NCBI RefSeq assembly: GCF_001659685.2
Contig: NZ_LXYE02000067.1
Location: forward strand, 1-34,400
Source of the DNA: Labilibacter marinus
Lineage (GTDB): Bacteria > Bacteroidota > Bacteroidia > Bacteroidales > Marinilabiliaceae
DNA length: 34,400 bases
Direction: 5' to 3'
Below the pieces are notes generated by a model, which was not told the origin of the DNA, searched no databases, and saw only the letters and a program-made list of their open reading frames with translations. How positions within the stretch are numbered: position 1 is the first letter of the stretch; every line of letters begins with the position of its first letter. A program made the translations under genes and the position numbers. Shown in pieces: positions 6,931 to 32,993 of the stretch.

Positions 6931-6983
6931 CTTGGAAGCCTAATGAAGTATACCCTGGGAGCCTAGTGAGGTACACCTTGGGA
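6931..6983. repeat. Degenerate 23-bp tandem repeat, about 2.3 copies
   Basis: Unit 1 is 6931-6953 and unit 2 is 6954-6976; they agree at most positions (shared core GCCTA-TGA-GTA-AC), and a third unit begins CTTGGGA at 6977 and then decays. The array is enclosed by an 8-bp perfect inverted repeat (6932-6939/6988-6995). Confidence 0.6.
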
Positions 6984-7073
6984 CTATGCTTCCAATGCCT
7001 ATGGAACTGTACTGGCCATATTATAATTAGTCATATTGAAAAAATACAATGTCGCAACTACACTTTCATATAC

Positions 7074-7102
7074 AAAAAAGCACCCTCGACATGAAGGTGC
7101 TT
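7074..7102 (-). terminator. Terminator of the acyl-CoA carboxylase genes
   Basis: Arms 7078-7084 and 7096-7102 (AAGCACC/GGTGCTT) with a minus-strand T run (7074-7079), downstream of the biotin carrier gene. Confidence 0.8.
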
Positions 7103-7127
7103 AATATCTCTTAGCATTAATATCAAA

Positions 7128-7649: not shown

Positions 7650-7705
7650 TCTATTTTGTTTTAAAGACAAAAGACACCGTAATTCAACCTCTTGATAAAA
7701 TTCAA

Positions 7706-9196: not shown

Positions 9197-9480
9197 GCGT
9201 TTATATTTTAATTTTTATGATCGCATGGAACTCGCAAAATTTAATCATCCTCTTGTTTGAGTAATCTTTTATCCTGCTTGTTTCATCTCATAATAATTCT
9301 AACAATCAAACGTATTCGATGTAACTCCCAATCGTATTCTGCCTAAGTAATAAAGGCTTCTCTCGGGGCGTTTCACGATATACTTTATATTAGTGTTATG
9401 ATGAAAGTACAAAGACGCTTACTTCAAAACTTAACTTGTGAAGTTTTTATTCTTTATACTTCTACCCTTTATGCTAAATT

Positions 9481-11022
9481 CTATAATGGAATATTTCCGT
9501 GTTTACGTGCTGGGTTTTGCTCTACTTTATTCTCCAGCAAAGCAAAAGCATTAATAATTACTTCTCTCGTTTCCGAAGGATCTATCACTTCATCGATGTA
9601 TCCTTTTTCATCCGCCACATAAGGATTAGCTACATTTTCTTTATAATCAGCTATTAACTTACGTTTTAGTTCTTCAGGGTCCTTAGCGTTTAATAATTCT
9701 TTTCTGTTCAGAATTTTAACGGCCCCTTCTGGTCCCATAACCGCAACTTCTGCAGTTGGCCAAGCAAAGTTAAAGTCGCCACCCATATTCTTACTATTCA
9801 TTACAATATAAGCACCTCCAAAAGCTTTACGTAAGATAACAGTAACCTTAGGCACAGTAGCCTCGGCAAAAGCATATAATAGTTTTGCTCCGTGCATGAT
9901 AATTGCATTTTGCTCCTGACTTTTACCCGGCATAAAACCTGGCACATCCTCAAGCACTAAAACAGGAATATTAAAAGAATCGCAAAAGCGCACAAAACGA
10001 GCTGCTTTTTTAGAAGCGTTAATATCTAAACATCCTGCCATTACTTTAGGCTGATTAGCTACTACACCAACTACTTGATTATTTAAACGAGCTAAGCCAA
10101 TAACTATATTCTGTGCATGATTTTCCCCAATCTCAAAGAAAGATCCCTTATCAACAATCAGTTGAATTACCTCAACAACATCGTATGGCTTATTGGGATC
10201 ATCTGGTAAAAGCAAAGAAAGTTTTTCGGGTTTACCTGGCTCCACATCTTCTTTCTTCTTAACTGGCGGATGCTCTACATTATTGGACGGCAAATAACTA
10301 AGCAGCTTTTTCACCCCCATTAAGGTATGTTCTTCATCACTAAAAATCATATCAGCCACACCACTTTCCGTAGCATGTACTTCAGCACCACCTAAATCTT
10401 CAAAAGTAACATCTTCGTTTAGTACCTCTTTTACAACCTCAGGCCCAGTTACAAACATATATGATGTATCTCTGGTCATGAACCTAAAATCGGTTAACGC
10501 AGGCGAATAAACAGCTCCTCCGGCAGCAGGCCCTAGAATAACAGAGATTTGAGGAATGACACCAGAACTCTTTACGTTTTGCATAAAAATACCAGCATAA
10601 CCAGCCAAACTAGCTACCCCTTCCTGAATTCTCGCTCCACCTGAATCAATCAAACCAATAATTGGATGACCCATTTTAAGCGACATCTCCTGTACTTTTT
10701 GGATTTTTCGAGCATGTACGGTTCCTAACGAACCTCCCATAAAGGTAAAGTCTTGTGCAAACACAAATACTTTTCTACCATTTACGGTTCCGTAACCTAC
10801 AATTACTCCGTCACCATATTTTTTTTCATCTTCTTTACCAAGAGGTTTTACAAAAGCATCTACCTCACGGAAGCTACCTTCATCCATCAAGAAATCAATT
10901 CTTTCTCGTGCCGTAAGCTTGCCCTTTGCGTGCTGTTTTGCAAAATAATTCTCGTCGTATTGACTCTCTAAGGCTTCTTTTCGAGCGTGAAACCTTTTAA
11001 ATGGGATTCTATTATCGTTCAT
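9481..11022 (-). CDS. pccB: Acyl-CoA carboxylase carboxyltransferase, probably propionyl-CoA carboxylase beta chain
   Basis: A 513-residue carboxyltransferase with fused N- and C-terminal crotonase-type halves. It moves the carboxyl group from biotin to an acyl-CoA. Motifs: GKLTARERIDFLMDEGSFRE, FTFMGGSLGTVHARKI, GLIDSGGARIQEGVASLAGY, ILGPAAGGAVYSPALTDF with the first oxyanion hole, and RKAFGGAYIVMNSK with the second; the Zn finger of AccD is absent. Length and motifs fit propionyl-CoA carboxylase or methylmalonyl-CoA decarboxylase beta chains; substrate cannot be fixed from sequence. Carrier and biotin carboxylase genes next door, with no Na+-pump subunits in sight, favour the soluble carboxylase, which would serve propionate/succinate metabolism. 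Confidence 0.93.
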   Translation of the reverse strand: MNDNRIPFKRFHARKEALESQYDENYFAKQHAKGKLTARERIDFLMDEGSFREVDAFVKPLGKEDEKKYGDGVIVGYGTVNGRKVFVFAQDFTFMGGSLGTVHARKIQKVQEMSLKMGHPIIGLIDSGGARIQEGVASLAGYAGIFMQNVKSSGVIPQISVILGPAAGGAVYSPALTDFRFMTRDTSYMFVTGPEVVKEVLNEDVTFEDLGGAEVHATESGVADMIFSDEEHTLMGVKKLLSYLPSNNVEHPPVKKKEDVEPGKPEKLSLLLPDDPNKPYDVVEVIQLIVDKGSFFEIGENHAQNIVIGLARLNNQVVGVVANQPKVMAGCLDINASKKAARFVRFCDSFNIPVLVLEDVPGFMPGKSQEQNAIIMHGAKLLYAFAEATVPKVTVILRKAFGGAYIVMNSKNMGGDFNFAWPTAEVAVMGPEGAVKILNRKELLNAKDPEELKRKLIADYKENVANPYVADEKGYIDEVIDPSETREVIINAFALLENKVEQNPARKHGNIPL

Positions 11023-11232
11023 TTTTTTCTTAATTGATTATTGCCTTACTACTAATGCAACAATTTATAAGTACTGTGTTCTAAGCTATTAAATAAAATT
11101 ACAACTCTATCTTGGATTAAGATTCTGTAAAATCAACGTTACCATAACACATAAACCTTTTTAATTGTTCTTTCAAGACGGTTTTAATGATGTAAAGAAA
11201 GTGAAAAAAGAAGCAATATATGTTTTATAACA

Positions 11233-11240
11233 TACATTTG
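11233..11240 (+). promoter_or_regulatory. -7 promoter element of the TonB receptor operon
   Basis: TACATTTG fully matches TAnnTTTG and sits about 50-100 bases before the two candidate starts. No TTG occurs at the expected upstream distance, so activation by another factor is possible. Confidence 0.4.
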
Positions 11241-11343
11241 CAAAATAAACATAAGTTATAAGTCGGGACTAAATAGTAAGATTATAAGGTACATGATTAA
11301 AAATTGCATTCTTATTCTTATGTTTGGTCTGTATTACATTAGG

Positions 11344-14223
11344 ATGAAAGAAGTTTTTTATAAATTATTATTAGTCAGTATTCTTTTTAACTACCCCTGT
11401 GCCTTTAAAGCTAAAGCGCAAAATAATTTATTTTATCAGGGAAAGGTTATTGAAAAAGAATCCAGAGAGCCTATTATCATGGCCAATGTTCTTATTTTAG
11501 AACTCAATCGTTGGCAAATAACGGATGAAAATGGCTACTTCTCTTTTTCTAATATTCCTCAAGGAAACTACACTTTCATCGTTAATATTTTAGGATATAC
11601 ATCCATAGAGCAACGATTAGAACTTCTTTCAAACACCAACAGTGCGTTGTTTAAACTGGAAAAGCTATCTCTACAAATCGAAGAAATTGTGGTGAATGGT
11701 GAAGAAGCTAACCTAGGCTCATCCACAAAAATAAATCAATCGGCCATACAGCATATACAGCCCAAAAGTCTTAAGGACATTATTGATTTGGTTCCAGGGC
11801 ATTTAAGTTCTAATCCTACCTTAGCAAAACCGTTACAAGTTTCAATTAGAGATTTAGACATAGGAAATACGGATCCCAATAGTGCATTTGGTGCTGCTAT
11901 TTATGTTGATGGCGCTCCTATTTCCAACAATGCCAACATGCAGGTATTTTCTACTTCAATGGATGGACTGAACTTACATACCCCAACCGTGGCAGGTAAA
12001 GGAATTGATTTAAGAAGTATATCCGGAGAAAACATAGAATCTGTTGAGGTAATAAGAGGTATTCCCTCAGTTGAATACAGCGACTTAAGTTCTGGTGCTG
12101 TTATTATTAAAAGTAAAATAGGCACAACACCTTTGCGCATTAGAGCTACATCCGATTTAAACACAAAAACCCTATCCGCAGGTAAAGGAATAGGATTAAA
12201 GAGTAAAACAGGTGTTTTTAATTTAAATGTTGATTATGCACAGGCGTATCCTGATATAAAGAAAAAATACAAAGGCTATAAGCGCATTAACACACAAGTA
12301 GGTTATAGTTCAAGCATTTTCGATAAAAACAAACCTTTAACTTTTAATATAAAGCTGGACTACCAAACGACTATTGATAATGAAAAAACTGACCCTCAGT
12401 TTACAACAGAAGAAATGTACAACTCCGAATATCAAAGATTTAGAACAAATATTTTTGGGAAGTGGCAATTAAACTCCAAGTTAATAACAAATATAGAATA
12501 TAACTTTAGTGGCAATTATTCTCATCAAAAAGATCATTATAAAAAAATTATTTCTTCTGATATATTTCCTTTAGCCAGCTCTTTAGTTGAGGGCGAACAT
12601 GAAGCAGAATACTTGCCGTCAAATTATTTATCTGATACCCGAATTGATGGTAAACCGTTTTCGTTATTGGCCAAACTTAAGGTATCTAAATCTGTTAAAT
12701 CGGAACACTTATTTAATAAGATATTACTGGGTTACGAATGGAGAATGGAAGGAAATAATGGTTTAGGAAGAGTATATGATATTAACCGTCCGCCTAAAGT
12801 TTCTACTTCTACCTATTTCAGTACTATTCGACCAAGATCGTTAAAGGAGATTCCTAATATAAATAATTACTCCTTATACATTGAGGATAAACTGAATTTA
12901 CAGATTGGAAAGACTAAACTCATCACTCAGGCAGGCCTACGCTACAACTACTTAAAAGCTTCTAAAACTAACTACTATTCGTGGGAACCCAGAGTTAATT
13001 TAAAATATTCGGTTTACAATAACAATAAGACTTTCTTGCAACATTTAGGGTTTAGATTTGGCTACGGTATTGCCACCAAACTACCTGGGCTTATTCATTT
13101 ATTTCCGGACAAAGCATACTTTGATAAATTAAGCTTTAACCACTATAACGAAGTAGATCCCAGTACTTCATTAGCTGTGTATAAAACACAAATAATCAAT
13201 AACACGAACAATCCTAAACTTACTCCATTCAGTAATATTAAAAGAGAAGCGGGAATCGATTTTAAGATAAAGGGGATAGACGCCAAGATAACTGCATATT
13301 CTGAAAAACAGACTGGTGGCATAAGCTTTAATTCAATTCCCTTAATCATTAGCCATAATAAATACACCAACCTGGAAGGTGCACAAAATCCATATCTTAC
13401 CGATGATGGAGTATATTATACCTTAAATGGAGAAAACACAAAAGCCCCTATTGTAATTGACACCACATTTAATTTATACAAGGTGCCACAAAATGATAGA
13501 GTATTAATTAAAAAAGGAATAGAATATTTTATTGACTTAGGTAAACTAAATTTTATAAATACACAATTTATCTTAAATGGTGCGTGGATGAATATTGAAT
13601 CGTACAACACTCAAAACAAATACAATTTTGAATCGGACCTACACAATGGAAAACCATACCCTTACCTACCTGTATTTCCTGCTGGAGAAAAAACCGAGAG
13701 ACATCGTTTCAACACTAACATTCAAGCAGTAACCTACATTCCTGCAGTAAGGCTAATTGCAACGTTAACAACACAAATAGTTTGGTTTGAAAAATACCAA
13801 AACAAATGGGAAGACAATAAAGACAATCCATATGTATATGTAGTTGAAGATGGCAAAATAATTGAAGTAGATAACGTATACTCCTATGTAAATTACACTA
13901 CGAAAGTAACTAAAAACATTAACCCTATTGGCTACTATGGTAAAGATGGAAAATATTACAATTGGAACGTGAACCCAAATGATGAACCCTATCGGAAAAT
14001 GGTTGAAACTAAGCCTCAAGGAATTTATATAGAGGAAAGTTATCCAGTGCGTTTCCAGTTTAATTTTAAACTTACTAAAGAAATTGGAGACCATTTAAAA
14101 CTTGCATTTATGGCCAATAACTTCTTAAATACTCGCCCCAAATACCAATACAAACGCTATAATGGTTACACTTTGCTAAACCAACAATTGTATTTTGGTG
14201 CTGAATTGGTTTTAGAACTATAA
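11344..14223 (+). CDS. TonB-dependent outer-membrane receptor with carboxypeptidase-regulatory-like N-domain
   Basis: An outer-membrane active-transport protein, about 959 residues from this start. MKEVFYKLLLVSILF...AKAQ is a signal peptide; an upstream in-frame ATG at 11293 would add 17 hydrophobic residues and spoil it. Next is a CarboxypepD_reg-like beta-sandwich (about 28-110: GKVIEKESREPIIMANVLI, TDENGYFSFSNIPQGNYTF), the plug (about 130-255, with AIYVDGAPISN and ESVEVIRGIPSVEYSDLSSG), then a 22-strand-type barrel rich in Tyr/Asn, ending YFGAELVLEL. The architecture is SusC-like, yet no SusD gene follows; a DUF4876 lipoprotein and a second barrel protein follow instead. The substrate is unknown: iron chelate, peptide or glycan are all possible. 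Confidence 0.9.
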   Translation: MKEVFYKLLLVSILFNYPCAFKAKAQNNLFYQGKVIEKESREPIIMANVLILELNRWQITDENGYFSFSNIPQGNYTFIVNILGYTSIEQRLELLSNTNSALFKLEKLSLQIEEIVVNGEEANLGSSTKINQSAIQHIQPKSLKDIIDLVPGHLSSNPTLAKPLQVSIRDLDIGNTDPNSAFGAAIYVDGAPISNNANMQVFSTSMDGLNLHTPTVAGKGIDLRSISGENIESVEVIRGIPSVEYSDLSSGAVIIKSKIGTTPLRIRATSDLNTKTLSAGKGIGLKSKTGVFNLNVDYAQAYPDIKKKYKGYKRINTQVGYSSSIFDKNKPLTFNIKLDYQTTIDNEKTDPQFTTEEMYNSEYQRFRTNIFGKWQLNSKLITNIEYNFSGNYSHQKDHYKKIISSDIFPLASSLVEGEHEAEYLPSNYLSDTRIDGKPFSLLAKLKVSKSVKSEHLFNKILLGYEWRMEGNNGLGRVYDINRPPKVSTSTYFSTIRPRSLKEIPNINNYSLYIEDKLNLQIGKTKLITQAGLRYNYLKASKTNYYSWEPRVNLKYSVYNNNKTFLQHLGFRFGYGIATKLPGLIHLFPDKAYFDKLSFNHYNEVDPSTSLAVYKTQIINNTNNPKLTPFSNIKREAGIDFKIKGIDAKITAYSEKQTGGISFNSIPLIISHNKYTNLEGAQNPYLTDDGVYYTLNGENTKAPIVIDTTFNLYKVPQNDRVLIKKGIEYFIDLGKLNFINTQFILNGAWMNIESYNTQNKYNFESDLHNGKPYPYLPVFPAGEKTERHRFNTNIQAVTYIPAVRLIATLTTQIVWFEKYQNKWEDNKDNPYVYVVEDGKIIEVDNVYSYVNYTTKVTKNINPIGYYGKDGKYYNWNVNPNDEPYRKMVETKPQGIYIEESYPVRFQFNFKLTKEIGDHLKLAFMANNFLNTRPKYQYKRYNGYTLLNQQLYFGAELVLEL

Positions 14224-14305
14224 AAATTGTGATTATATTTACAGCCTTTCAATCTTACTTCCCCTACAACTAATCAATTCTATTTTAATTAAAATATCTG
14301 CATGG

Positions 14306-15511
14306 ATGAGAAGTTGTTTTAGATTAGTTAGCTTATTTTTATTGATAATACTATTGGTTAATTGTGATGATAAAATTGCAAAAGCTCATAAAGTTAATAT
14401 TCAGGTACAGTATAATAACAACATAACAGGTTCTGGGCTAGAAATGCTAAACGTTAATGCTGTAGGAGTCGACAATAAAATAAACAAAACGAATAGTACC
14501 GATGAAAGTGGAACTACTACTTTTAAACTTCCATCAGGTCTTTATAATTTTTCAGTAAGCTTTGTTAAAAACGGATATAACTACAATGGATATATCGAAA
14601 ACCAAGTAGTTAAAGAAGATGGCGATTCATTTACCATTGATTTAACCGAAAGCCTCCAACAAGGACTTGTTTTTAAGGAAATATACTATTCAGGATCAAG
14701 AACACCAGAAGGAAAAACTTACACTTCAGATCAGTTTTTAGAAATATACAATAATACAGATGAAGTTATTTATCTGGATGGATTAACTATCGGATCTCTG
14801 CAGCAGGCTGCTTCAAATGAAAACGACTGGATTAATAGCGCAAACAAAATTTTAAATAGAATTGCTTTACAGTGGCATGTAATGTATATCTTAGGCTCCG
14901 GTTACGATGTTTCATTACAACCATTTACCAGCGTAGTAATTGCTGTGGATGGCATCAACCACAAATCCGATCCAAATGGCAATCCCAATAGCCCTGTAGA
15001 TTTAGGTAATGCAAATTGGGAGGCATATTGTGGTGATTTTAATGGAGGTAAAGACCTCGATGCGGTAGGTGTGCCAAATTTAGAACTTTTATTTTCAACC
15101 AGACACTCTGCGAACGACTGGACAATTTCCCCAAATGGGAATAATTCAATTATCATGTTTAAGCTTCCTCAAATAAGTGATTATCCTACTTGGGGAGAAA
15201 ACCCAAACAACCGCAGTACAGAACCTGGAAGTTCCAGTTCAACTGAATTTCTTATGATCCCCAAAGAGTATGTTATTGATGCAGTTGAATTAGTGAGGCC
15301 TGATGATGGTAAGCAACATAAAAGCCTGCACAATGATATAGATGCTGGTAAAGTATGGTGTACTTCCTCTTTTAGCGGTAAAAGTATTCGCCGAAAGGTA
15401 AAAGAAATAGTGGATGGAAACGTTATATATCAAGATACGAATAACTCAAGCAATGACTTTTTGAGCGATCAGGATCCTACTCCCGGTATTCATCCTACAA
15501 GTGTAGATTAG
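14306..15511 (+). CDS. DUF4876-type lipoprotein with lamin-tail-like domain
   Basis: A 401-residue lipoprotein: hydrophobic leader with lipobox LLVNC (Cys20), then DD at +2/+3. Residues 28-115 look like a small transthyretin/carboxypeptidase-regulatory beta-sandwich (TDESGTTTFKLPSGLYNFSVS). Residues 121-165 (LVFKEIYYSG..., QFLEIYNNTDEVIYLDGLTI) match the opening of lamin-tail-like domains, and the remainder (LFSTRHSANDWTISPNGNNS; PKEYVIDAVELVRP; CTSSFSGKSIRRK) continues that theme. The whole fits DUF4876 as I recall it. It lies 82 bases after the receptor and 22 bases before the barrel gene. It probably sits on the outer membrane as the receptor's partner in SusD's place. The start ATG 14306 is in frame; an ATG at 14302 is out of frame. 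Confidence 0.75.
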   Translation: MRSCFRLVSLFLLIILLVNCDDKIAKAHKVNIQVQYNNNITGSGLEMLNVNAVGVDNKINKTNSTDESGTTTFKLPSGLYNFSVSFVKNGYNYNGYIENQVVKEDGDSFTIDLTESLQQGLVFKEIYYSGSRTPEGKTYTSDQFLEIYNNTDEVIYLDGLTIGSLQQAASNENDWINSANKILNRIALQWHVMYILGSGYDVSLQPFTSVVIAVDGINHKSDPNGNPNSPVDLGNANWEAYCGDFNGGKDLDAVGVPNLELLFSTRHSANDWTISPNGNNSIIMFKLPQISDYPTWGENPNNRSTEPGSSSSTEFLMIPKEYVIDAVELVRPDDGKQHKSLHNDIDAGKVWCTSSFSGKSIRRKVKEIVDGNVIYQDTNNSSNDFLSDQDPTPGIHPTSVD

Positions 15512-15533
15512 CAAAATATAGTATATTTAGCAC

Positions 15534-17105
15534 ATGCTAAACTCATGTACCAAGCTAACATCAAGAATAGTCATAATTACATTATGCTTTACACTGCAAT
15601 GCATTGGTTTTTATACCAATGCACAAAGTAAGGATACTTTAAAACATTATACCTCTTTAAACTATTCTATTGAGTATGCAGATATATGGCTGCAAAGTAA
15701 TCAGCCTGCTGCAATAAGCTATCAACCTTTTAATAAGCTAGCTACCATCAATGCCGGTTTTCTGCAAGCAGATAATTTATTCAAAAGTGTTTTTCATCCA
15801 ACATCGCAAACGCAATATAATTTAAGCAGCTCAGGTTACACAAAACTCAACCAGCTGAATTTATGGGGAAAAGCGCAGTATAAAAACACCAAACAGTCTG
15901 AACAAAAATGGAATAACACTACATTTATTTCAGAAGCTAATCCTTTTATTCATGGTGATTCAATTGGAGGTGACTACCAGCAAGATTTTTATTTATTAGA
16001 AGCCAGAATGGCTTACAGATCTGCCAGTAAGAAATATGATTGGGGATTAGGTTTAAATTATACAGTCAGCGATAAAACTAACCAATCTGACCCTCGCCCG
16101 CTGATTAAATCATTGCGGTTTAAATTAGAACCAGGGTTAATTATTCATCAACAGAAGTGGGATTATGGCATTAGCCTTAAATACGAAAGGTTAAGCGAAA
16201 CAACAGAAACAACACGAAATGATAAATCTGAAAATCATGCTTTGTTTCGCTTCATTGGAATGGGATTACATAAAAAAGAAACTCTTGGCACAGGCTACCC
16301 CGAAGATATAATGACCTATAATGGTTATAAAAAAGGCATTTCAATTCAATCTAAATACAAAGGCTTAGATTTTGAAAATTTAAGCATAGCTAGTTATGAA
16401 AAAACTTACGAAAGGGCTGCACAAGGATCTGTTGGACAACTTTTAACCGGAGACTATCACAATCACAAATACAACTTCACCAATATTCTTTTAATTAAAA
16501 AAGAGCAATTAATACATAATATTAAGCTAAACATTAGTCACAATCATATAAAAGGAATCTGGTTTTATCAAAAGGAAATTCCCCAATCACAATCATACAA
16601 CTTCGAAATATATGATAAAGCGGTAAGACACAAGAGAAAAATCACGCAAATAGAATCTTCATACGATTTTATAATCGAAGAAAACAACCTACCTCATTTA
16701 CAGGTGGAATCAGGCATTAAATTAACCTTCGACAAAACCGAGGTATTCCCAGAAAGCTATTATAACCAAGTCAACAATATACAGTTTAGCTCCAACATCA
16801 ATAAGTACTTGTATTTTGGTGGCATAAACCTGAAAATGAATTTAGCAGCTACATACCGCTTCAACTTAAGCAAGAGAATCTATATTGAAGATATTGAGCT
16901 AAAAGAACAAATTACTTACCCAGAATACTATTATAGTAGCGCTGATTTCCTTCAATTTAAGATTGGAATTACTACAGATTTGCTATGCCTGGCTGCGGAC
17001 AAATATATGCCTTATGCAAGCCTATACACTCAGCAACTATTTGTTACAGAAAATTCTAATAACCACAACCATAATTACTCCATTGGTATTGGTATTCTTT
17101 TTTAA
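15534..17105 (+). CDS. DUF6850-like outer-membrane beta-barrel protein
   Basis: A 523-residue exported protein (signal peptide through FYTNAQ, about residue 31) consisting of alternating amphipathic strands with many Tyr/Trp/Asn, such as ARMAYRSASKKYDWGLGLNYTV and KWDYGISLKYERLSE, and a C-terminal strand ending YSIGIGILF, the aromatic-terminated barrel signature. Position and pattern fit the DUF6850 barrels that I recall next to DUF4876 genes. There is no plug domain, so it is not itself a TonB receptor; it may be a passive pore or assembly partner. It lies 22 bases after the DUF4876 gene, is the last gene of the operon, and no clear hairpin terminator follows. Confidence 0.7.
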   Translation: MLNSCTKLTSRIVIITLCFTLQCIGFYTNAQSKDTLKHYTSLNYSIEYADIWLQSNQPAAISYQPFNKLATINAGFLQADNLFKSVFHPTSQTQYNLSSSGYTKLNQLNLWGKAQYKNTKQSEQKWNNTTFISEANPFIHGDSIGGDYQQDFYLLEARMAYRSASKKYDWGLGLNYTVSDKTNQSDPRPLIKSLRFKLEPGLIIHQQKWDYGISLKYERLSETTETTRNDKSENHALFRFIGMGLHKKETLGTGYPEDIMTYNGYKKGISIQSKYKGLDFENLSIASYEKTYERAAQGSVGQLLTGDYHNHKYNFTNILLIKKEQLIHNIKLNISHNHIKGIWFYQKEIPQSQSYNFEIYDKAVRHKRKITQIESSYDFIIEENNLPHLQVESGIKLTFDKTEVFPESYYNQVNNIQFSSNINKYLYFGGINLKMNLAATYRFNLSKRIYIEDIELKEQITYPEYYYSSADFLQFKIGITTDLLCLAADKYMPYASLYTQQLFVTENSNNHNHNYSIGIGILF

Positions 17106-17257: not shown

Positions 17258-18337
17258 ATGAAAAGTCAGAATTTATGGCTAACAACCATAAGCTTGTTAG
17301 TTATATTGTTTTCATCGTGTGCCGGCAAGGATACACAAGCTAATCAAGAGGAAGCTAGGTATGTTAAATCAGCTTCAGTTTTACCTGCCAACGATAACAA
17401 CACCGTTATTTTAAATGGTGTTGTTAAAGAATTACGCCAAGTAACTTTATCGTTTAAAGTTGGTGGCCCAGTTCAAACATTATTAGTTGATGCTGGTGAT
17501 TATGTGAACAAGGGAGAAATTATTGCTCAAATCGACAAACGCGATTATCGCATCCAAGTGCAAGCCACCAAGGCGCAATACACGCAAGCTAAAGCTGAAT
17601 ACGAGCGATACCAAGAGCTTTACCAAAGAAAGAAACTTCCTGAAAATACTTTAGATAAATTAAAGGCTGGTTATCTTATGGCTAAAAGTCAGTACGAGGC
17701 TGCTGAAAATGCATTAATTGACACCGACTTAAAAGCTCCTTTTTCGGGATATATCGACAAAAAACTAATTGAAAACTTTGAAACAGTAGGCCCTGGTGTT
17801 CCTATCGTTAAACTTTTAGATTTCACCGATTTAGAAGTTGCTGTTAGTATTCCTGAAGGACAGATAAACCAAATGGAAATAGTAAAAGAAATTACTTGCG
17901 ATATTCGTAATGCTAACCAATTCAATATTCCAGCTACAGTAAAATCGTTGAGCAAAAAATCGGGCAGTGATAGAATGTTTGAGGCTAAGCTATTACTAAA
18001 ATCCAATGATTTAAAAAGCAATATTAAACCAGGCATGGTAGCCAAAGTAAAAGTTACTAAAAAACAGCAGAATGGCGATGGCCTTTTAGTTCCTGTTGAG
18101 TCTGTATTCTCCAAGAATCAGGAAAAGTATGTGTGGGTAATTCAGGCCAACAATATGCAGGTGAAAAAGCAACCTGTATCTGTATTAAAAGTGCATGGCA
18201 ACGGATTAATTGAAATTAATTCGAACCTTAAAGCTGGAGATAAGATAGTAACCGCTGGTGTTCATACTTTAATTGAAGGACAAAAAGTAAAAGTTCTTCC
18301 AAAAAAGTCAGCAACTAATATCGGAGGTTTACTATGA
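17258..18337 (+). CDS. RND efflux periplasmic adaptor (membrane fusion) lipoprotein
   Basis: A 359-residue adaptor linking an inner-membrane RND pump to an outer-membrane channel. Lipobox LFSSC (Cys21) anchors it. In order: a half-lipoyl/beta-barrel start (TLSFKVGGPVQTLLVDAGDYV, KGEIIAQIDKRDY), a short alpha-hairpin (about 95-145), the second lipoyl half (ALIDTDLKAPFSGYIDKKLI), a beta-barrel domain (about 185-260) and a membrane-proximal domain with VPVESVFSKNQEKYVWVI. Its stop codon overlaps the pump start (ATGA), so the two are translationally coupled. Substrate is not deducible. Confidence 0.93.
   Translation: MKSQNLWLTTISLLVILFSSCAGKDTQANQEEARYVKSASVLPANDNNTVILNGVVKELRQVTLSFKVGGPVQTLLVDAGDYVNKGEIIAQIDKRDYRIQVQATKAQYTQAKAEYERYQELYQRKKLPENTLDKLKAGYLMAKSQYEAAENALIDTDLKAPFSGYIDKKLIENFETVGPGVPIVKLLDFTDLEVAVSIPEGQINQMEIVKEITCDIRNANQFNIPATVKSLSKKSGSDRMFEAKLLLKSNDLKSNIKPGMVAKVKVTKKQQNGDGLLVPVESVFSKNQEKYVWVIQANNMQVKKQPVSVLKVHGNGLIEINSNLKAGDKIVTAGVHTLIEGQKVKVLPKKSATNIGGLL
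18323..18327 (+). promoter_or_regulatory. Strong Shine-Dalgarno (GGAGG) before the pump gene
   Basis: GGAGG six bases before the ATG at 18334, inside the end of the adaptor gene. Such a clear ribosome-binding site stands out in this window and supports coupled translation across the ATGA overlap. Confidence 0.6.
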
Positions 18338-21300
18338 GCAAAGGAACAATAGAAAAGGTACTGAACCAAAAGGCGTTTATCACCTCTATTTTGGTGGCAG
18401 TATTTTTGGGCGGAATACTTGCTTTTCAAGGCCTAGGGAAATTAGAGGATCCTGAGATTCCTATTAAATCGGCAGTTATCATTACTCCATATGCTGGAGC
18501 TTCTGCTTCCGAAGTAGAACTAGAAGTAACTGATGTACTTGAAAAAGCAGTTCAAAAACTAGAAAATATTGAATTCATAGAATCTCGATCTACGGATGGC
18601 ATGTCGGAAATTACGGTTAATGTTGAACCGAGGGTAATAACCGCTAAAATGCCTCAAATGTACGATCATTTGCGCAGAAAAATTAATGATGCAAAACGTG
18701 ATTTACCTGCAGGTGCTGATCCCATTGTTTTAGATGATTTTGGCGATGTATACGGTATATTCATTTCGGTAAGTGCCGATGGTTATTCGTACAGAGAACT
18801 AAACGATTACGTAGAGTACATTAAGCGTGAATTATTACTTGTTGAAAATATTCGACGCATAGAGATATTTGGACAGCAAATAGAAACGGTTGACATCAAG
18901 TTTTCTACCGAGAAATTTGCACAACTAGGTCTTAACCCGATGTTAATCGTTCAGGCTATTAACGATCAGGCTTCTATTGTTAACCCAGGCAATGTTGTGG
19001 TGGGTTCCGAAAGAATTAGGTTGAGTCTTGGTGCCAAGTTCAAAAGCATAGACGATATCAATAACTTGCTTGTTCAGGTTCCTGGAGGAGGATCTTTTTT
19101 ATTGGGTGAGATTGCTACGGTTGAAAGAAGTTTTTATACCCCTAAAAGAAATGACTTTAAATACAACGGAAAAAAAGCGATGTCGTTGGCCATTTCCATG
19201 GAAAGTAAAGTCAATGTAATAAAGGTTGGAGAGGTTTTCGATGCCAAGGTGGCTGAACTTCAAAAAAACTTACCTGTTGGAATTGAAATCAACAAAGTTT
19301 TCTTTCAACCGGACAGAGTAGATCAATCCATTAGAGGATTTATGATCAACCTAATTGAGTCAGTACTGATTGTTATTGTGGTGTTATTATTTGCCATGGG
19401 AATGCGCTCAGGACTGCTTATTTCAAGTGGATTGGTATTTACCATATTGGCGACTTTTATTGTGATGCAGGCAGCAGGAATAGAGCTACAGCGTGTATCC
19501 CTTGCAGCCATTATTGTGGCCATGGGTATGTTAGTAGATAACTCTATTGTTGTGGCAGATGGTATTCTGATCGACCTTAAAAAGGGAATGGATAGAAAGA
19601 AGGCCTTTATTAATACGGCACAAAAAACATCCATGCCACTTTTAGGAGCCACTATAGTAGCTATATTAGCATTTATGCCTTTAGGGTTTTCTCCGGGTCA
19701 AGCTGGTGAATTTTTAAAATCCTTGTTTTACGTTTTGGCTATTTCTTTATTCCTAAGCTGGATATTTGCGATGATACAAACGCCATTTATGGCCAACTGG
19801 TTTTATCGTGGCAAAGTAGCTAAAGCTAGTGATAACAATGATATGTACGACAATAGTTTATATCGTTGGTTTAAAAAAGTACTACAAGGTATGTTATGGC
19901 ATAAAACAGTATTTATCATTGCCACTACCATTGTACTTTTTACTTCAATCTGGTCATTTAAATTTGTTAAACAAGAGTTTTTTCCTGCCCTGGATTATCC
20001 GCAGTATGTAATTGAATATTGGTTACCACAAGGAAGCGATATTTATCAGGTTGAAAAAGATTTAGATAAAGCACAGCAAGATTTAAAAGATTGGGATGGC
20101 GTTGAAAACATCACCACTTCTTTGGGACAAACACCGGCTCGTTACACCTTGCTTCGACCAATGACTACCATCAACAGTAACTATGGTGAGTTAATTATTG
20201 ATGCTGTTGATTTTGAAGCTGCACAAAGAACAGCTGTTGAGTTGGTTGATTACATGCACAAGGAATACCCTCAGGCATTTGTTCGAGCTAGAACTTACAG
20301 CCCTATTTTTACTGAGTATTTAATTGAGGCTAAGTTTACCGGTCCCGATCCGGCTGTATTAAGAGACCTTTCTGTGCAAGCGGAAGAAATAATGAGAGGA
20401 AGTGAGTTTTGTGAGATTGCAACTAATAACTGGAAAAACCAATCCAAAGTATTAACTCCAGAATATTCCGTGGACCAAGCTCGCCTTCAAGGTATCAGCC
20501 GAAGCAATGTGGCCAATTCGTTAGCCATTGCATCAAACGGAATGCCTGTTGGAGCCATTCATCAAGGAGTAGATGTATTACCTGTCATCCTAAAAATGAA
20601 TGAACCTGTAGGCAGTCGTGTTGAAAACATAGAATCGGTTCCTGTTTGGAGTAATTCAATGTCTAGCGTTCCTTTGGCTCAAGTCATCGATTCGGTAACC
20701 GTAAGTTGGGAAAACAAACAAATCAGGAGATACAATGGATTAAGAGCTATTAAATCACAATCTAATCCAAAGTTAGGCATTACTGCTCCTGAGTTATGGA
20801 ACGATATTCATGCACAGGTAGAAGCTATAAAGTTACCGCATGGTTATGAGCTAGAATGGCTGGGAGAACATAAAGATAGTAAAGAAGCTAACGCCGACTT
20901 ATTCGCTTTACTTCCGCTTGCTTTAGGTATTATGTTGCTCATTGTCATTCTACTTTTCAACAACTTAAAACAACCTATGATTGTAATGGGTGTAGTACCT
21001 ATGGCTTTGGTTGGTGTTGCATTAGGCCACCATATTATGCAGGCCACTTTCGGGTTTATTGGAATTATTGGTACCCTAGGATTAATTGGTATGATGATTA
21101 AAAACGCCATTGTTTTACTGGACGAAATCAACGACCAAATAGCCAGTGGTGTAGATCAGTTAAACGCTATCATTAACGCAGCTATTTCTCGTATGCGTCC
21201 TGTTATGATGGCTTCTTTAACTACCATATTAGGAATGGTTCCATTACTTTTTGATGTCATGTTTAAAGGGATGGCGGTTGCTGTAATGTTTGGTTTATTG

Positions 21301-21384
21301 ATAGGATCTATAGTTACACTAGTTGTAGTTCCTGTAATGTATGCTATTCTTTACAAGGTTAACACCAAAGTTTTACACGATTAA
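18334..21384 (+). CDS. RND multidrug-type efflux pump, inner-membrane subunit
   Basis: A 1016-residue proton-driven pump of the AcrB/MexB superfamily. It has the duplicated layout: TM1 near residues 15-32, a large periplasmic loop (about 35-335), TM2-6 (335-500), then TM7, a second loop and TM8-12 (860-1010). The conserved TM4 stretch GMLVDNSIVVADGI carries the proton-relay aspartate. FIGIIGTLGLIGMMIKNAIVLLDEI marks the second half and RMRPVMMASLTTILGMVPL the final helices. It is in one operon with the adaptor (4-base overlap) and TolC-like channel (30-base gap). Divergent from named pumps, so drug, metal or lipid export are all open. Confidence 0.95.
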   Translation: MSKGTIEKVLNQKAFITSILVAVFLGGILAFQGLGKLEDPEIPIKSAVIITPYAGASASEVELEVTDVLEKAVQKLENIEFIESRSTDGMSEITVNVEPRVITAKMPQMYDHLRRKINDAKRDLPAGADPIVLDDFGDVYGIFISVSADGYSYRELNDYVEYIKRELLLVENIRRIEIFGQQIETVDIKFSTEKFAQLGLNPMLIVQAINDQASIVNPGNVVVGSERIRLSLGAKFKSIDDINNLLVQVPGGGSFLLGEIATVERSFYTPKRNDFKYNGKKAMSLAISMESKVNVIKVGEVFDAKVAELQKNLPVGIEINKVFFQPDRVDQSIRGFMINLIESVLIVIVVLLFAMGMRSGLLISSGLVFTILATFIVMQAAGIELQRVSLAAIIVAMGMLVDNSIVVADGILIDLKKGMDRKKAFINTAQKTSMPLLGATIVAILAFMPLGFSPGQAGEFLKSLFYVLAISLFLSWIFAMIQTPFMANWFYRGKVAKASDNNDMYDNSLYRWFKKVLQGMLWHKTVFIIATTIVLFTSIWSFKFVKQEFFPALDYPQYVIEYWLPQGSDIYQVEKDLDKAQQDLKDWDGVENITTSLGQTPARYTLLRPMTTINSNYGELIIDAVDFEAAQRTAVELVDYMHKEYPQAFVRARTYSPIFTEYLIEAKFTGPDPAVLRDLSVQAEEIMRGSEFCEIATNNWKNQSKVLTPEYSVDQARLQGISRSNVANSLAIASNGMPVGAIHQGVDVLPVILKMNEPVGSRVENIESVPVWSNSMSSVPLAQVIDSVTVSWENKQIRRYNGLRAIKSQSNPKLGITAPELWNDIHAQVEAIKLPHGYELEWLGEHKDSKEANADLFALLPLALGIMLLIVILLFNNLKQPMIVMGVVPMALVGVALGHHIMQATFGFIGIIGTLGLIGMMIKNAIVLLDEINDQIASGVDQLNAIINAAISRMRPVMMASLTTILGMVPLLFDVMFKGMAVAVMFGLLIGSIVTLVVVPVMYAILYKVNTKVLHD

Positions 21385-21414
21385 CTGGCATAGCCAAAGC
21401 AAATTACAAAACGG

Positions 21415-22758
21415 ATGAAATATAATATTAAAACCATATTGATATGTTGTGGATGGATAGTTTCAGTACTATCCATTCAGGCACAACAAAAGTCTTTAAA
21501 TCTGGAAGAGACTCGAAGTTTGGCATTGGAGTTTAACAAAACACTAAAGGTGTCAGCTTTACAAAAGGTGCAAGCAGAAGCTAAAAAGAAGGAGGCTTTT
21601 ACCAATTATTTGCCTGAGCTTAGTGCAACAGGTTCAGCAATGATGTATCCAGGAACGGATAATACAACTATTCCAGCAATGACATTGCCATCTGCAGCGG
21701 ATCCTTCAACTCCAAGTGATGCTCTTTTCCCAGGTTTGACGATTGAAACAGAGAATCTTTCGATTTTAAATGGTGGAGTAAACTTAAGTCAACCTATTTA
21801 TGCTGGCGGACAAATACGCATTGCTAATAAAATGGCCAATACGGGTGTTGAAATTAGCGAGCAGGCTTATCAATTAAAAGAGGCCGAAGTTATTTTAAAC
21901 ACAGATCAAGCCTATTGGAGGTTAGCCGCCATGCGCGAAACGGTAACCTTAGCCGAGAATTATGTATTAATGCTAGATAGTCTAGAGCAGCAATTAAAGG
22001 ATATGTATGAACTTAGTTTAGTTCCTAAAAGTGAGCAACTAAAAGTGACCGTACAAAAAAATGATGCCGAATTAAATCTGCTTAAAGCTAAAAATGGATA
22101 TAAAATTGTTCAGATGAACCTTTGCCAAATTATTGGCTTGCCACTCAACACCGAGATAACGGTAACCGAAACGGTAAAACTTAATCCTACCCTACCAGAA
22201 ATGACTGGTAGCATGGACAAAGCCTTAAGTAGTCGTCAAGAACTTAAGATACTAAATAGCCAAGCTGAAATTTCTACCTATAATAAAAAGTTAGTGAATG
22301 CTGAATTTCTACCTCAACTAGGAGCTCAAGTAGGGTATCAACATTATAAAATTAATGATTTAATTGACCAAGGAAATCTCTCAGTAGCTGCATCTTTATC
22401 TATTCCTATTTTTCATTGGAACGAGAAGAAACATAAAAAATCAGCTGCTCAGGCACAAATAGATCAGGCTTATTTAAACCTTAACGACACTCAGGAGTTA
22501 GTTCAGTTAGAGGTACAGCAAGTGATGATTCAATTGCAAGAAGGTTACGAATCAATATTATGGGCACAAAAAAACAAAGCGGAAGCGCAGGAAAGCTTAG
22601 ATGAAACACAAGCCAGTTATGATGTGGGTTTAAACACCACCACAGACTTGCTTAATGCAAAGGCAGCTTGGCAAAATGCTTATGCCAAAGAAATAGAAAC
22701 CCTCGCTAATTTTGAGGTTTTAAAAACCAAATATCAAAAAGCTTTAGGAGTATTGTAG
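21415..22758 (+). CDS. TolC-like outer-membrane efflux channel
   Basis: A 447-residue outer-membrane factor with signal peptide (cleavage near SIQAQ) and two OEP repeats of long helices with short barrel strands. Typical elements: LNLEETRSLALEFNKTLKVS at the start of the first repeat, LSQPIYAGGQIRIANKMA at its barrel strand, and SLSIPIFHWNEKKHKKSAAQ plus SYDVGLNTTTDLLNAKAAWQ in the second. No lipobox cysteine is seen, unlike OprM. Last gene of the tripartite pump operon, followed by a possible long-loop hairpin. Confidence 0.93.
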   Translation: MKYNIKTILICCGWIVSVLSIQAQQKSLNLEETRSLALEFNKTLKVSALQKVQAEAKKKEAFTNYLPELSATGSAMMYPGTDNTTIPAMTLPSAADPSTPSDALFPGLTIETENLSILNGGVNLSQPIYAGGQIRIANKMANTGVEISEQAYQLKEAEVILNTDQAYWRLAAMRETVTLAENYVLMLDSLEQQLKDMYELSLVPKSEQLKVTVQKNDAELNLLKAKNGYKIVQMNLCQIIGLPLNTEITVTETVKLNPTLPEMTGSMDKALSSRQELKILNSQAEISTYNKKLVNAEFLPQLGAQVGYQHYKINDLIDQGNLSVAASLSIPIFHWNEKKHKKSAAQAQIDQAYLNLNDTQELVQLEVQQVMIQLQEGYESILWAQKNKAEAQESLDETQASYDVGLNTTTDLLNAKAAWQNAYAKEIETLANFEVLKTKYQKALGVL

Positions 22759-22958: not shown

Positions 22959-24023
22959 ATGAGGAAGTTGAGAAACATAGACGATAAATGTAAACATTGG
23001 AGAAAACTGCATACAAACAGCAGTTTTGTAAGCCTGAGAAGAAGATTATTATTCGTTCTTTTTATGGCTACCTCATTCTTTTACATTGTACACGAGCTAA
23101 TAATGAATGGGGAAGCAGTGCATTGGACTGGCTATGTATTTACCCTTTGTGTTTTCTTCTTATTTTCCGAAGCTATTATATTATTCGACCGACTTATTGC
23201 TAAAAGGTTCCCTTGGCACGAAGCCGTTAAAAAACGTACCTTATTACTCCTTGGTTTTGCCATTGTTTGGATGGTAATTATGGAATACACAGTAGTACAT
23301 TTAGAGCCTATCTTTGTTAAGCAAGTCATCATGGATCCTCAAAAGCATAGGTTATCCATAGCATATGGGATGTTATACTTAATCATTTATGTGGTACTCA
23401 TTATAGCACATAACTTTCATAAAAGTCTGGAGTTTTTTATGATTGAAAATGAAAAGCTCAAACAAGACAAAATATTAACCGATTATAAAGCATTACAAGA
23501 CCAAGTAAATCCACATTTTTTATTCAATAACCTGAGTACGCTTATTGCCATTATCAGAACGGATAAAAACAAGGCCATTGACTTTGCAGAAAATTTTACT
23601 GATGTGTACAGATACCTGCTCATTGGAGAAGGTCAGGCTGCCATATCGTTGAAAGATGAGCTTAAGTTTTTGGAGGCATATACAACCTTACATAAAGCGC
23701 GAATTGGAGACGGGTTAAGCATTGAAGTTAATGTACCTGAGGAAATCCAAAACAAAAGAGTTCCTCACCTAAGTTTACAAGTATTAGTTGAGAATGCCAT
23801 TAAACACAACATTACTTCGCGTACTAAACCTTTGGCTATACACATTGGCATTAATCAAGACAAGCTATTTGTAGCCAACAACAAGCAAATCAAAGAATCT
23901 ACTTACTCAACAAAAACGGGATTATCGAACTTAAGTAAACGACTAAAAATACTTACTGACGAGGAGTTGAAAATTGTAGAAGATGAAGAAACCTTTAGGG
24001 TAGAAATTCCTATTATTGATTAA
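22959..24023 (+). CDS. LytS/YehU-type membrane sensor histidine kinase
   Basis: A 354-residue kinase. Four hydrophobic helices occupy residues 27-165 (LLFVLFMATSFFYIVHELI, VFTLCVFFLFSEAIIL, LLLLGFAIVWMVIMEY, YGMLYLIIYVVLIIAH), followed by a coiled linker (MIENEKLKQDKILTDYKAL). The His_kinase (PF06580) domain has phospho-acceptor His186 in QVNPHFLFNN, then the ATPase motifs LVENAIKHN and TGLSNLSKRL. No separate sensor domain is present, so the stimulus is probably sensed in or at the membrane. The response regulator follows after 17 bases. The adjacent efflux operon on the same strand is a plausible target, but that is inference. Confidence 0.93.
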   Translation: MRKLRNIDDKCKHWRKLHTNSSFVSLRRRLLFVLFMATSFFYIVHELIMNGEAVHWTGYVFTLCVFFLFSEAIILFDRLIAKRFPWHEAVKKRTLLLLGFAIVWMVIMEYTVVHLEPIFVKQVIMDPQKHRLSIAYGMLYLIIYVVLIIAHNFHKSLEFFMIENEKLKQDKILTDYKALQDQVNPHFLFNNLSTLIAIIRTDKNKAIDFAENFTDVYRYLLIGEGQAAISLKDELKFLEAYTTLHKARIGDGLSIEVNVPEEIQNKRVPHLSLQVLVENAIKHNITSRTKPLAIHIGINQDKLFVANNKQIKESTYSTKTGLSNLSKRLKILTDEELKIVEDEETFRVEIPIID

Positions 24024-24040
24024 CCTTTAAATTAAATAAG

Positions 24041-24817
24041 ATGGCTTTTAATGTAATTATTGTTGAAGATGAGATATTAAGTGCTCAGATGCTGGAAGGA
24101 ATGATTCAAGAGCTCCGTCCTGATTGGGTTATTAAGGGAACTTTTGACAGCATAACCGAAACGGTAGAGTGGCTGCAAAACAACGAACATCCTAATTTAA
24201 TATTTCTGGATATTCAGCTTTCTGATGGTTTAAGCTTTTCTATTTTTGAAAAGGTAAAAGTAGAAAGTGGTATTATTTTCACCACCGCCTACGATGAGTA
24301 TGCTGTTAAAGCTTTTAAGCTAAATAGCATCGATTATATATTAAAACCTATCAAGGAGGAATCTTTACTTTCTGCCATTGAAAAGATGGAGAAAATTACC
24401 GAGCTGTTTGAAAACGAAAGTAGTACAGATATAAACTATGCCGAATTGGTTAAGGGCATTAAAGAAGGTGGAAGCACTTATCGCAAACGTTTTTTAGTTT
24501 CTAAACGAGATGCTTACTTCGCTATTCCTGTAGAGGATGTGGCCTATATCTTCTTTGAATCAAAAATGACTTATGCAGTTACCTTCGACAAGAAACAGCA
24601 CATCATTAACTTTACACTGGACAAATTGGAAGAGGAGCTTGACCCAGCTCAATTTATTAGAGCAAACAGGCAGGCTATTGTAAACCTAAAGGCCATTCAC
24701 TCCTTAGAAAACTATTTTGGCGGAAAACTAATTGTTAAGCTTCTTCCTCAGTTTGACGAGAAATTTGTGATTAGCAGAGCTAAAGCTACTGTATTTAAAG
24801 AGTGGTTAGACAGTTAA
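24041..24817 (+). CDS. LytTR-family response regulator
   Basis: A 258-residue regulator paired with the LytS-type kinase. Residues 1-125 are a receiver domain with the acidic pair ED (10-11), phospho-acceptor Asp57 in LIFLDIQLSDG, and the conserved Lys in YILKPI. Residues 155-258 are a LytTR DNA-binding domain (KRFLVSKRDAYFAIPVEDVAYI, FIRANRQAIVNLKAIHSLENYF). The gene ends tail-to-tail with the ArsC-like gene; the two stop codons share the palindrome TTAA (24814-24817). Confidence 0.94.
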   Translation: MAFNVIIVEDEILSAQMLEGMIQELRPDWVIKGTFDSITETVEWLQNNEHPNLIFLDIQLSDGLSFSIFEKVKVESGIIFTTAYDEYAVKAFKLNSIDYILKPIKEESLLSAIEKMEKITELFENESSTDINYAELVKGIKEGGSTYRKRFLVSKRDAYFAIPVEDVAYIFFESKMTYAVTFDKKQHIINFTLDKLEEELDPAQFIRANRQAIVNLKAIHSLENYFGGKLIVKLLPQFDEKFVISRAKATVFKEWLDS

Positions 24818-31655: not shown

Positions 31656-32993
31656 TTACTTCTTCCAGTGCGAATCTATATACTCATAACTCTCGCGCAT
31701 GCTTAGTGGTTGCGAGGATGCTGAAGTACGAATGTAAAATTCTTCTTTATCGCCTTTACCAATAAACGCAGGTTTATCTCCTTTTTCTATGTTCACAATA
31801 CAAACATCCTTATCGTTTATCGATATGATATTGATATTTAAAAAGCTATGAATTCGTTTACCTAAGTGCTGATTGATTAGATTGGTTAAGCCAAGTAAAA
31901 AGCCATCTCTACTCTTTTTGCTATAGCTATTGTAATCATTCTCCAAACCTAAGGTGTTACCATCGTCATCTACCCCTATAAAAAGCATTCCTCCTTCGGT
32001 ATTTAAAAAAGCCGAAATGGTTTTAATAATTACCATTTCCAATGCCTTATTAGGCTTCTCTTGGCGGTAATCCCATCGCATCGACGACTTAAACTCTATC
32101 AAGTCATTTTCTCCTTTATCTAAAATTACTTGCCAATCAGTACCTGCCTCAAATTCCATCAATTTTTTATTGCGTTTCTTCTGCTTTTTCATGTACATCC
32201 AAAACATAAAAAGACTAAATACCAGGCAAATAAAAACAAATAAGGCCACCCAATACATGCTCCTACTTTCTTTGTAAAGCTTGTATTTTTTAGCCATAGC
32301 AATTAATTCTTCGGTACTAATTTTACTAGAACCCGACATAATATTCAACAATACTTCTTGATTGCCTTTTTTTACTGCCGGACGTAATTGCGAAGTAAAT
32401 AAAGTTGCAAATTCATAATACCCATCTGGGGTATCAAATCCTTTATAGGTTCCTAAAGTATTTGGAATATCATACACAAAACCATCGCATTGTTTTAGGT
32501 GAGCCTCTTCTCGAACCAACGAAAATGAATCCACTTTTTTAATCTTTAAGTTAGGATACCTTTTGCCCAGTTCTTTGATGGCCGTGCTTTTATCTAAAAC
32601 CGTAATCTCTGCTGTAAGATTTGTTGATACTTCAAATTCCTCTTTTAAAAACACCACCGAACGCAAACGTAAAATAGGGTCAGAGAATTCAATAATATCA
32701 GTCCGATCCTCCGTGTAATACAATCCAGCAATGGCATCTACCTCACCTTGAAGTAATAAATCACCTATATTATTTACATCAGAAGGAACAAACTCAACAT
32801 CAATACCCGACTTCTCACTCCATAATTTCCACCAGTCTATGGCAATTCCGCTGGCCTCGCCTTGATCGTTAATTGCAGTATAGGGGTAATAATCGTGTAA
32901 ACAAGCTATTTTATAGGTTTTACCTTCTAGCTTAGATGAATATATAAAGATGCTTAAAAGACTTAGAAGTATGCTTAAAGATAATTTTCTCAT
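31656..32993 (-). CDS. Periplasmic solute-binding domain - TM - AlbA_2 (Schlafen-type) receptor protein
   Basis: A 445-residue protein of unusual build. Signal peptide or first helix at 1-22. Residues 25-238 form a family 3 solute-binding (SBP_bac_3) domain: YKIACLHDYYPYTAINDQG, GIAIDWWKLWSEKSGIDVEF, GEVDAIAGLYYTEDRTDIIEF. One membrane helix follows (247-268), then a Lys/Arg-rich cytoplasmic edge. Residues about 293-430 match the AlbA_2 domain of Schlafen-type proteins (NDLIEFKSS; TISAFLNTEGGMLFIGVDDDG; FYIRTSASSQPL), a putative DNA/RNA-binding or nuclease-related module often annotated 'ATP-binding'. It reads as a one-component receptor: a small ligand outside, nucleic acid or nucleotide inside. 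No transporter genes are adjacent. Each domain is secure; the signalling role is inference. Confidence 0.85.
   Translation of the reverse strand: MRKLSLSILLSLLSIFIYSSKLEGKTYKIACLHDYYPYTAINDQGEASGIAIDWWKLWSEKSGIDVEFVPSDVNNIGDLLLQGEVDAIAGLYYTEDRTDIIEFSDPILRLRSVVFLKEEFEVSTNLTAEITVLDKSTAIKELGKRYPNLKIKKVDSFSLVREEAHLKQCDGFVYDIPNTLGTYKGFDTPDGYYEFATLFTSQLRPAVKKGNQEVLLNIMSGSSKISTEELIAMAKKYKLYKESRSMYWVALFVFICLVFSLFMFWMYMKKQKKRNKKLMEFEAGTDWQVILDKGENDLIEFKSSMRWDYRQEKPNKALEMVIIKTISAFLNTEGGMLFIGVDDDGNTLGLENDYNSYSKKSRDGFLLGLTNLINQHLGKRIHSFLNINIISINDKDVCIVNIEKGDKPAFIGKGDKEEFYIRTSASSQPLSMRESYEYIDSHWKK

Follow-up and report, generated by a model that had tools for sequence, protein, structure and literature searches.

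Bacterial receptors speak to the cell interior via kinases, cyclases, phosphodiesterases, methyl-accepting proteins and DNA-binding domains, and ToxR and CadC exemplify the membrane-bound one-component transcription factor. Family 3 solute-binding (SBP_bac_3) domains usually feed ABC transporters. In eukaryotes, Ire1 joins a luminal sensor through a membrane helix to an RNase, with a kinase in the same protein. Vertebrate Schlafen proteins have nuclease cores built of two related lobes. SLFN13-N is described as a U-pillow that embraces the acceptor stem (PMC5862951). Among the SLFN14 mutants reported in PMC12215978, every alanine mutant of the catalytic motif ExxxxExK (E206, E211, K213) was inactive and tRNA cleavage was only moderately affected in D248/D249 mutants; the account of E205, E210 and D248 in SLFN13 gives a similar picture (PMC5862951). 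Bacterial Schlafen proteins, including the Schlafen-kinase-wHTH type, have been placed in defence (PMC12839542).

The gene described here lies in the window, by which we mean the whole stretch of 34,400 nucleotides of Labilibacter marinus DNA that was analysed. It encodes a protein that combines a solute-binding domain with an AlbA_2 domain of the Schlafen type, and its features are as follows:

31656..32993, minus strand: whole gene, SBP_bac_3 domain, membrane helix and SLFN_AlbA_2 domain, 445 amino acids
32922..32993, minus strand: signal peptide, residues 1-24, with hydrophobic core 4-22 (from hydropathy, without cleavage-site prediction)
32283..32912, minus strand: family 3 solute-binding domain, residues 28-237, with candidate clamp R97 and D175 (Pfam, Foldseek, alignment with AncQR, conservation)
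32142..32261, minus strand: helix, residues 245-284, a membrane segment (248-266) followed by a basic linker (hydropathy, AlphaFold2 model, sequence)
31704..32111, minus strand: SLFN_AlbA_2 domain, residues 295-430 (Pfam, profile match to Schlafen structures)
32088..32111, minus strand: ExxxxExK motif (E295, E300, K302), residues 295-302 (alignment to SLFN14, conservation)
31965..31970, minus strand: tandem aspartates D342-D343, aligned with SLFN14 D248/D249 (profile alignment)

The sequence-only reading had the coordinates of the gene right and left the strand unsaid; the plus strand across 31656..32993 is riddled with stops. Its anatomy of export signal, solute-binding domain, one membrane helix and AlbA_2 domain was confirmed by Pfam, hydropathy and AlphaFold2. 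SBP_bac_3 (PF00497) scored 66.8 bits over residues 28-237 (cut-off 26.4, E 2e-18), and SLFN_AlbA_2 (PF04326) scored 75.2 bits over residues 295-430 (cut-off 25.3, E 8.1e-21). The peptide EFKSS, which that reading had picked out within the AlbA_2 domain, is indeed there and begins at residue 300; LNTEGGMLFIGVDDDG begins at residue 330. Hydropathy gave a single membrane segment (248-266) besides the signal-peptide core. There are five lysines or arginines in the 15 residues N-terminal of the helix compared with seven in the 15 residues C-terminal of it, a modest bias, and the cytoplasmic placing of the C-terminal half follows mainly from the signal peptide and the SBP domain. The gene stands alone, since one neighbour (which we take to be acyl-CoA-ligase-like) is convergent with it and the other (presumably uroporphyrinogen-decarboxylase-like) is divergent. 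Elsewhere in the window, sequences judged by eye include an efflux operon of adaptor, RND pump and outer-membrane factor at 17258-22758, after which comes a pair of sensor kinase and LytTR-type regulator at 22959-24817.

Like BvgS and other SBP_bac_3-HisKA-HATPase kinases, two of which are encoded in the same genome, the protein has a periplasmic SBP domain on a membrane helix. Unlike these sensor kinases its output is AlbA_2, and no phosphotransfer domain or other third domain was found above the Pfam cut-offs, so that by architecture it is a one-component protein with input and output in one chain. The earlier view that signalling would proceed with no kinase is consistent with the lack of a kinase domain, with a gene that stands by itself and with the repeated fusion of AlbA_2 of this subfamily to other sensors, a receiver included. 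With SLFN13 and SLFN14 the protein shares the AlbA_2 unit, ExxxxExK and tandem aspartates; unlike SLFN14 and SLFN5, whose matched chains of 912-943 amino acids have further domains, it has a single such unit, anchored to the membrane and preceded by a sensor. It resembles bacterial Schlafen proteins in having AlbA_2 as a putative RNase (an AlbA_2-HATPase_c_4 protein is also present in the same genome), and differs from the defence Schlafens in having the build of an extracytoplasmic receptor and in not being seen in a defence island. Neither AlbA_2 as a signalling output nor an SBP-AlbA_2 fusion was found in the open-access literature searched, which agrees with the sequence-only statement that no protein of this build is known to have been characterised, and the main text of a census of archaeal two-component systems (PMC5847659) does not mention AlbA or Schlafen. 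Both halves are from known families, and what is new, within the literature searched, is their fusion and the use of this AlbA_2 subfamily in signalling. Our favoured explanation, which we hold with moderate confidence, is that the protein is a one-component receptor: a ligand in the periplasm would gate a Schlafen-type RNase, tethered to the membrane, whose action would restrain translation.

With an alignment of 16 sequences, AlphaFold2 gave a model of mean pLDDT 88.1 and pTM 0.54 (with only four aligned sequences the pLDDT was 42). The model shows an SBP-like fold that leads via a helix (245-284) into an alpha/beta domain, predicted with confidence from about residue 291 onwards, where an AlbA_2 fold had been expected. 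Block means over residues 31-230 are mostly 88-96, with dips to 77-78, and the predicted fold of this region is the two-lobed one of solute-binding proteins. At residues 271-290 the block means drop to 62-67, and because of this and the pTM of 0.54 the linker and the arrangement of the domains are not fixed by the model. Foldseek matches had E-values as low as 1.5e-18 and TMt of 0.72-0.80 to many amino-acid binding or sensor domains, with others lower; the best 50 of 1692 matches of the full-chain model were all of the SBP kind, with the BvgS sensor domain on top. There was no AlbA_2 protein among these 50, and the identity of the output domain and its relation to Schlafen proteins therefore rest on Pfam and sequence profiles. 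In the profile search the AlbA_2 half matched chains of SLFN14, SLFN11, SLFN12 and SLFN8 at E 1.7e-10 to 2.3e-9 and, more weakly, SLFN5 and other SLFN11 chains, giving 15 sequences in all at E 0.01.

The fusion is not an assembly chimera or an accident of reading frame. In a genome scan with one genome per species and two narrow peptide patterns, for which 107 stretches were tried, all 12 confirmed loci matched from the SBP domain to the end of AlbA_2, and in 11 of them the frame is intact, L058 being frameshifted. The spread of the fusion, which the sequence-only reading had proposed to follow by a domain search, is with these two narrow patterns confined to Bacteroidota (Labilibacter, Marinilabiliaceae, Draconibacterium, Eudoraea, Algibacter, Cyclobacteriaceae and others). 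The frameshifted relative, from Draconibacterium, is split into two frames at L058:397-1742. Four of 71 genomes of the family, the own genome included, encode the full-length form (the sets overlap, L033-L035 of the family search being L050, L051 and L056 of the scan), and in searches of 295 order genomes (E 1e-10) and 395 phylum genomes (E 1e-30) the own genome was the only one with a full-length match. A phage origin was ruled out, since the phage collection gave one weak match, to the AlbA_2 half. A viral scan gave six loci, and the four that were read have no SBP domain by eye; 23 plasmid records matched part of the query and none covered 80% of it.

Across the 13 SBP-type loci, no neighbour gene family was common to more than two, which rules out a conserved adjoining partner, whether an ABC transporter or another, and supports a receptor. 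Nor was a defence island seen by eye among these neighbours. RND genes adjoin the SBP-type gene in two loci (L052 and L055), and the RND-type gene of the window, at 18334-21384, is approximately 10 kb from the SBP-AlbA_2 gene; a link of the SBP type to RND efflux was rejected as insufficiently supported by these cases.

What might the sensor half bind? R97 aligns with an arginine of AncQR, an ancestral arginine/glutamine-binding protein, and R97 and the lobe-2 aspartate D175 are candidates for the pair that clamps an alpha-amino acid. R97 is kept in seven and D175 in nine of the 12 SBP-type proteins, window protein included, and hence a single amino acid cannot serve as the ligand of all; from these residues the ligand of the window protein is likely to be amino-acid-like, which does not hold for every SBP-type protein. 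The SBP homologues that we scanned, two from the own genome (L002 and L003) and four from the family, were SBP-HisKA-HATPase kinases in six cases out of six, a count that covers these homologues and leaves out other partial SBP matches in family genomes. The sensor half is thus drawn from a pool used by kinases, and together with BvgS as the best fold match this supports reading the protein as a receptor. Over 11 orthologues, identity to the window protein is 56-94% in AlbA_2 compared with 31-62% in the SBP half. Divergence has been faster in the sensor than in the output, which is expected where receptors are tuned to different ligands, and the better preservation of the output also favours the RNase receptor.

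We then consider the output half as a module. At E 1e-25 a profile of the AlbA_2 region gave 36 matches in 33 of the 295 order genomes, of which 35 were read and the fragment G052 was left out. They divide into proteins with a soluble N-terminal region (11), cNMP_binding (9), an extracytoplasmic region with membrane helices (8), two helices (3), other partners (2), GmrSD_N (1) and the window's SBP domain (1); the nine cNMP proteins and the GmrSD_N protein were classed by Pfam, the extracytoplasmic and two-helix proteins by hydropathy, and L004 runs off its contig. In the soluble class L013 alone was scanned and the others were assigned by likeness; apart from AlbA_2, L013 matched nothing in Pfam, and it matched nothing in NCBIfam. 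The soluble N-terminal region of this class, seen in L013, L014, L016-L018, L020, L021, L023-L025 and L027, is about 250-320 amino acids long. After loci from the family, phylum, plasmid and viral searches had been added, there were 67 modules, all of at least 145 bits, and the next match had 68 bits, a gap that is partly one of selection as most loci were chosen for strong matches.

The partners of this AlbA_2 subfamily are extracytoplasmic regions, cNMP_binding, REC, a two-helix anchor, GmrSD_N, DUF499/HmaC and SBP. One of the 67 modules, L088:5991-6914 (minus strand), is a response regulator, with Response_reg at E 4.7e-26 and AlbA_2 at E 3.2e-18. By its domain make-up this REC input is strong evidence, from one case, that AlbA_2 would act as a signalling output. 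The long frame beside this gene has, by eye, PAS-, kinase- and receiver-like parts as in a hybrid sensor kinase. On the tree of the 67 modules the 13 SBP-type modules form one clade (support 100/99), which is grouped with seven of eight extracytoplasmic-sensor modules and three of five GmrSD_N-class modules (90/83, branch not starred). The two-helix class (97/90) and the soluble class (100/96) each form one clade and the cNMP class is less sure (77/80); with eight classes, ten class changes are needed on the tree compared with a minimum possible of seven. Judged from these partners, the output module of this subfamily is portable, beyond the single window protein, and its occurrence with inputs as varied as Response_reg, cNMP_binding, extracytoplasmic regions and SBP speaks for a gated RNase.

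In the profile alignment, E295, E300 and K302 of the window protein fall on E206, E211 and K213 of SLFN14, so that ExxxxExK is present, and D342-D343 fall on D248-D249, the tandem aspartates found in a subset of SLFNs. D342 varies within the subfamily and D343 hardly does. All 51 modules outside the two-helix class, 13 of the SBP type included, keep E295, E300, K302 and D343. Together with the fusion at 12 of 12 loci and its single clade, this conservation supports an RNase receptor. The presence of ExxxxExK alone is not special to the subfamily, because the own genome encodes two further AlbA_2 proteins, of which one also keeps the motif and the other reads ExxxxDxK. All 67 modules have R422, which might do the work of R133, the invariant arginine near the site in SLFN14, but R422 sits C-terminal to the motif and R133 N-terminal.

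It is in the two-helix class that the site breaks down. The three motif residues are kept in ten of its 16 modules (14 distinct) and lost in six: L081 and L082 have Q in place of E295, and in L085, L086, L087 and L094 both K302 and D343 are changed, with E300 also gone in L094. In addition L093 keeps the motif and has lost D343. By the tree, the joint loss of K302 and D343 concerns two or more lineages (L085-L087 and L094), and it adds to the case for the RNase receptor; joint decay in a side branch with strictness elsewhere is, as far as conservation can tell, the pattern of a catalytic site. The sequence-only reading had left the output as either nucleic-acid binding or RNA processing, and of the two the latter is now better supported by the strict preservation of ExxxxExK in this branch.

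The neighbours of the two-helix genes are distinctive. Among the 14 loci with wide neighbourhoods (L079, L081-L087 and L089-L094), several of which are close relatives and so not independent, some with stretches that end at contig ends, there is an RND pump gene in 11 and an adaptor-like gene in 13, although some of the 'adaptor' matches are small HMA proteins. Eight chosen neighbours proved by Pfam to be two AcrB-type pumps, two CusB-type adaptors (one with HMA), and HMA, P-type ATPase with metal-binding domains, P-II and cation efflux proteins. RND and adaptor genes are absent from the stretches of L095-L100, which have extracytoplasmic or cNMP input, and from that of the REC locus L088. Five of the six motif-losing members (L081, L082 and L085-L087) have metal-efflux-type genes alongside; no match to a pump or adaptor was obtained in the stretch of the sixth, L094. 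A role of the module in metal homeostasis is therefore possible, and some members may fill it although their site is no longer intact.

These relatives bear on the main rival of the RNase receptor, a membrane-bound regulator of the ToxR/CadC kind in which AlbA_2 would bind DNA or RNA according to the periplasmic state and have no catalytic role. Six of the 16 two-helix members persist with motif residues lost, so that an RNase would not be the sole workable use of the fold, and the metal-gene setting (RND in 11 of 14), in which a regulator would be unsurprising and which includes members with a broken site, keeps this alternative alive. Moreover, PMC6299218 counts PF04326 among the DNA-binding domains. 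A non-catalytic binder, however, would have no obvious need to preserve E, E, K and D in every one of the 51 modules outside the two-helix class, it leaves the joint loss of K302 and D343 in four members unexplained, and it sits badly with the occurrence, in one defence ATPase, of AlbA_2 in the place reported for HEPN RNases (see below). We regard it as unlikely, though the most serious of the alternatives.

The defence ATPase in question is encoded at L106, where a module of the subfamily forms the N-terminal part of a DUF499 ATPase with a match to the PADLOC model HmaC (E 1.4e-120). Matches to HmaA (6.6e-214) and HmaB (8.3e-140) lie on the same strand around it in one operon (2556-16573), and a NOV_C/sacsin-type gene lies between the operon members. 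The Hma protein is thus like the window protein in its AlbA_2 subfamily, and unlike it in being operon-encoded and having no SBP domain by Pfam. Type-1 DUF499 systems, as described in PMC12839542, consist of ATPase, methyltransferase and helicase, and the ATPase often has an N-terminal HEPN endoRNase. From the three common components we infer that the PADLOC Hma system is of the same kind. The alternation of HEPN and AlbA_2 in the same place on HmaC suggests, by analogy and from one locus, that both do the same job of RNA cleavage; this supports an RNase receptor, and its being a single locus counts against leaning on it heavily.

A second defence-linked partner is GmrSD_N (DUF262), which by Pfam carries a C-terminal AlbA_2 of the subfamily in L071:1144-3450, L077:6387-8519 and L101:985-3126, found on a viral contig, on the Sinorhizobium pSymA plasmid and in an order genome, respectively. 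To the five members of this class belong also L078, a Haloquadratum plasmid gene assigned by its DUF262 annotation, and L072, assigned by likeness. In the vicinity of the Sinorhizobium gene there are genes with annotations of type I restriction and abortive infection.

Could the window protein itself serve defence, its SBP domain sensing envelope damage or a phage cue and its AlbA_2 RNase halting translation as in abortive infection? The fusions of the subfamily to GmrSD_N and HmaC/DUF499 and the Sinorhizobium neighbourhood point that way, but the best match of the window protein to PADLOC models was at E 0.1, which places it with no known defence model, the 13 SBP-type loci have neither a neighbour family beyond pairs nor a defence island by eye, and SBP, REC and cNMP inputs suit ordinary sensing; we therefore consider a defence receptor improbable. 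Most improbable of all is an accessory of transport or metabolism with AlbA_2 as a scaffold without nucleic-acid function, which could appeal to the usual role of SBP_bac_3 with ABC transporters but is opposed by the lack of a conserved adjoining transporter partner and by the output domain being the better conserved half.

For the favoured RNase receptor we envisage the following course. The periplasmic family 3 SBP domain would bind a small ligand, which is probably an amino acid or closely related to one, and binding would alter its lobes; the helix at 245-284 would carry the change across the membrane to AlbA_2. The signal would probably pass as a change in a dimer, in which two AlbA_2 units meet or shift. 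By Pfam there is one AlbA_2 unit per window-type chain, which set against the U-pillow of SLFN13-N counts against an RNase; a homodimer could supply two units, and since vertebrate Schlafen cores are two-lobed a receptor dimer would be a natural means of gating the one-unit form. RNA, perhaps tRNA or rRNA by analogy with SLFN13 and SLFN14, would then be cut or spared, and translation tuned at the inner membrane. If the RNase reading is true the protein is like Ire1 in logic, an outside sensor gating an inside RNase in one chain; unlike Ire1 it has a different sensor, a different RNase and no kinase, and we claim no homology.

More tentatively, and with rather less confidence than in the receptor itself, we suggest that the module defines a class of bacterial signal-transduction proteins with a Schlafen-type RNase output gated by ligand, by phosphorylation (REC) or by cyclic nucleotide, of which the window protein would be the nutrient-receptor form and the counterpart in logic of Ire1. 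The occurrence of one tight AlbA_2 subfamily in both signalling and defence settings provides a link to the antiviral Schlafen RNases. A receptor with an RNase output, if that is what this protein is, would couple nutrients outside the cell to translation in a single step.
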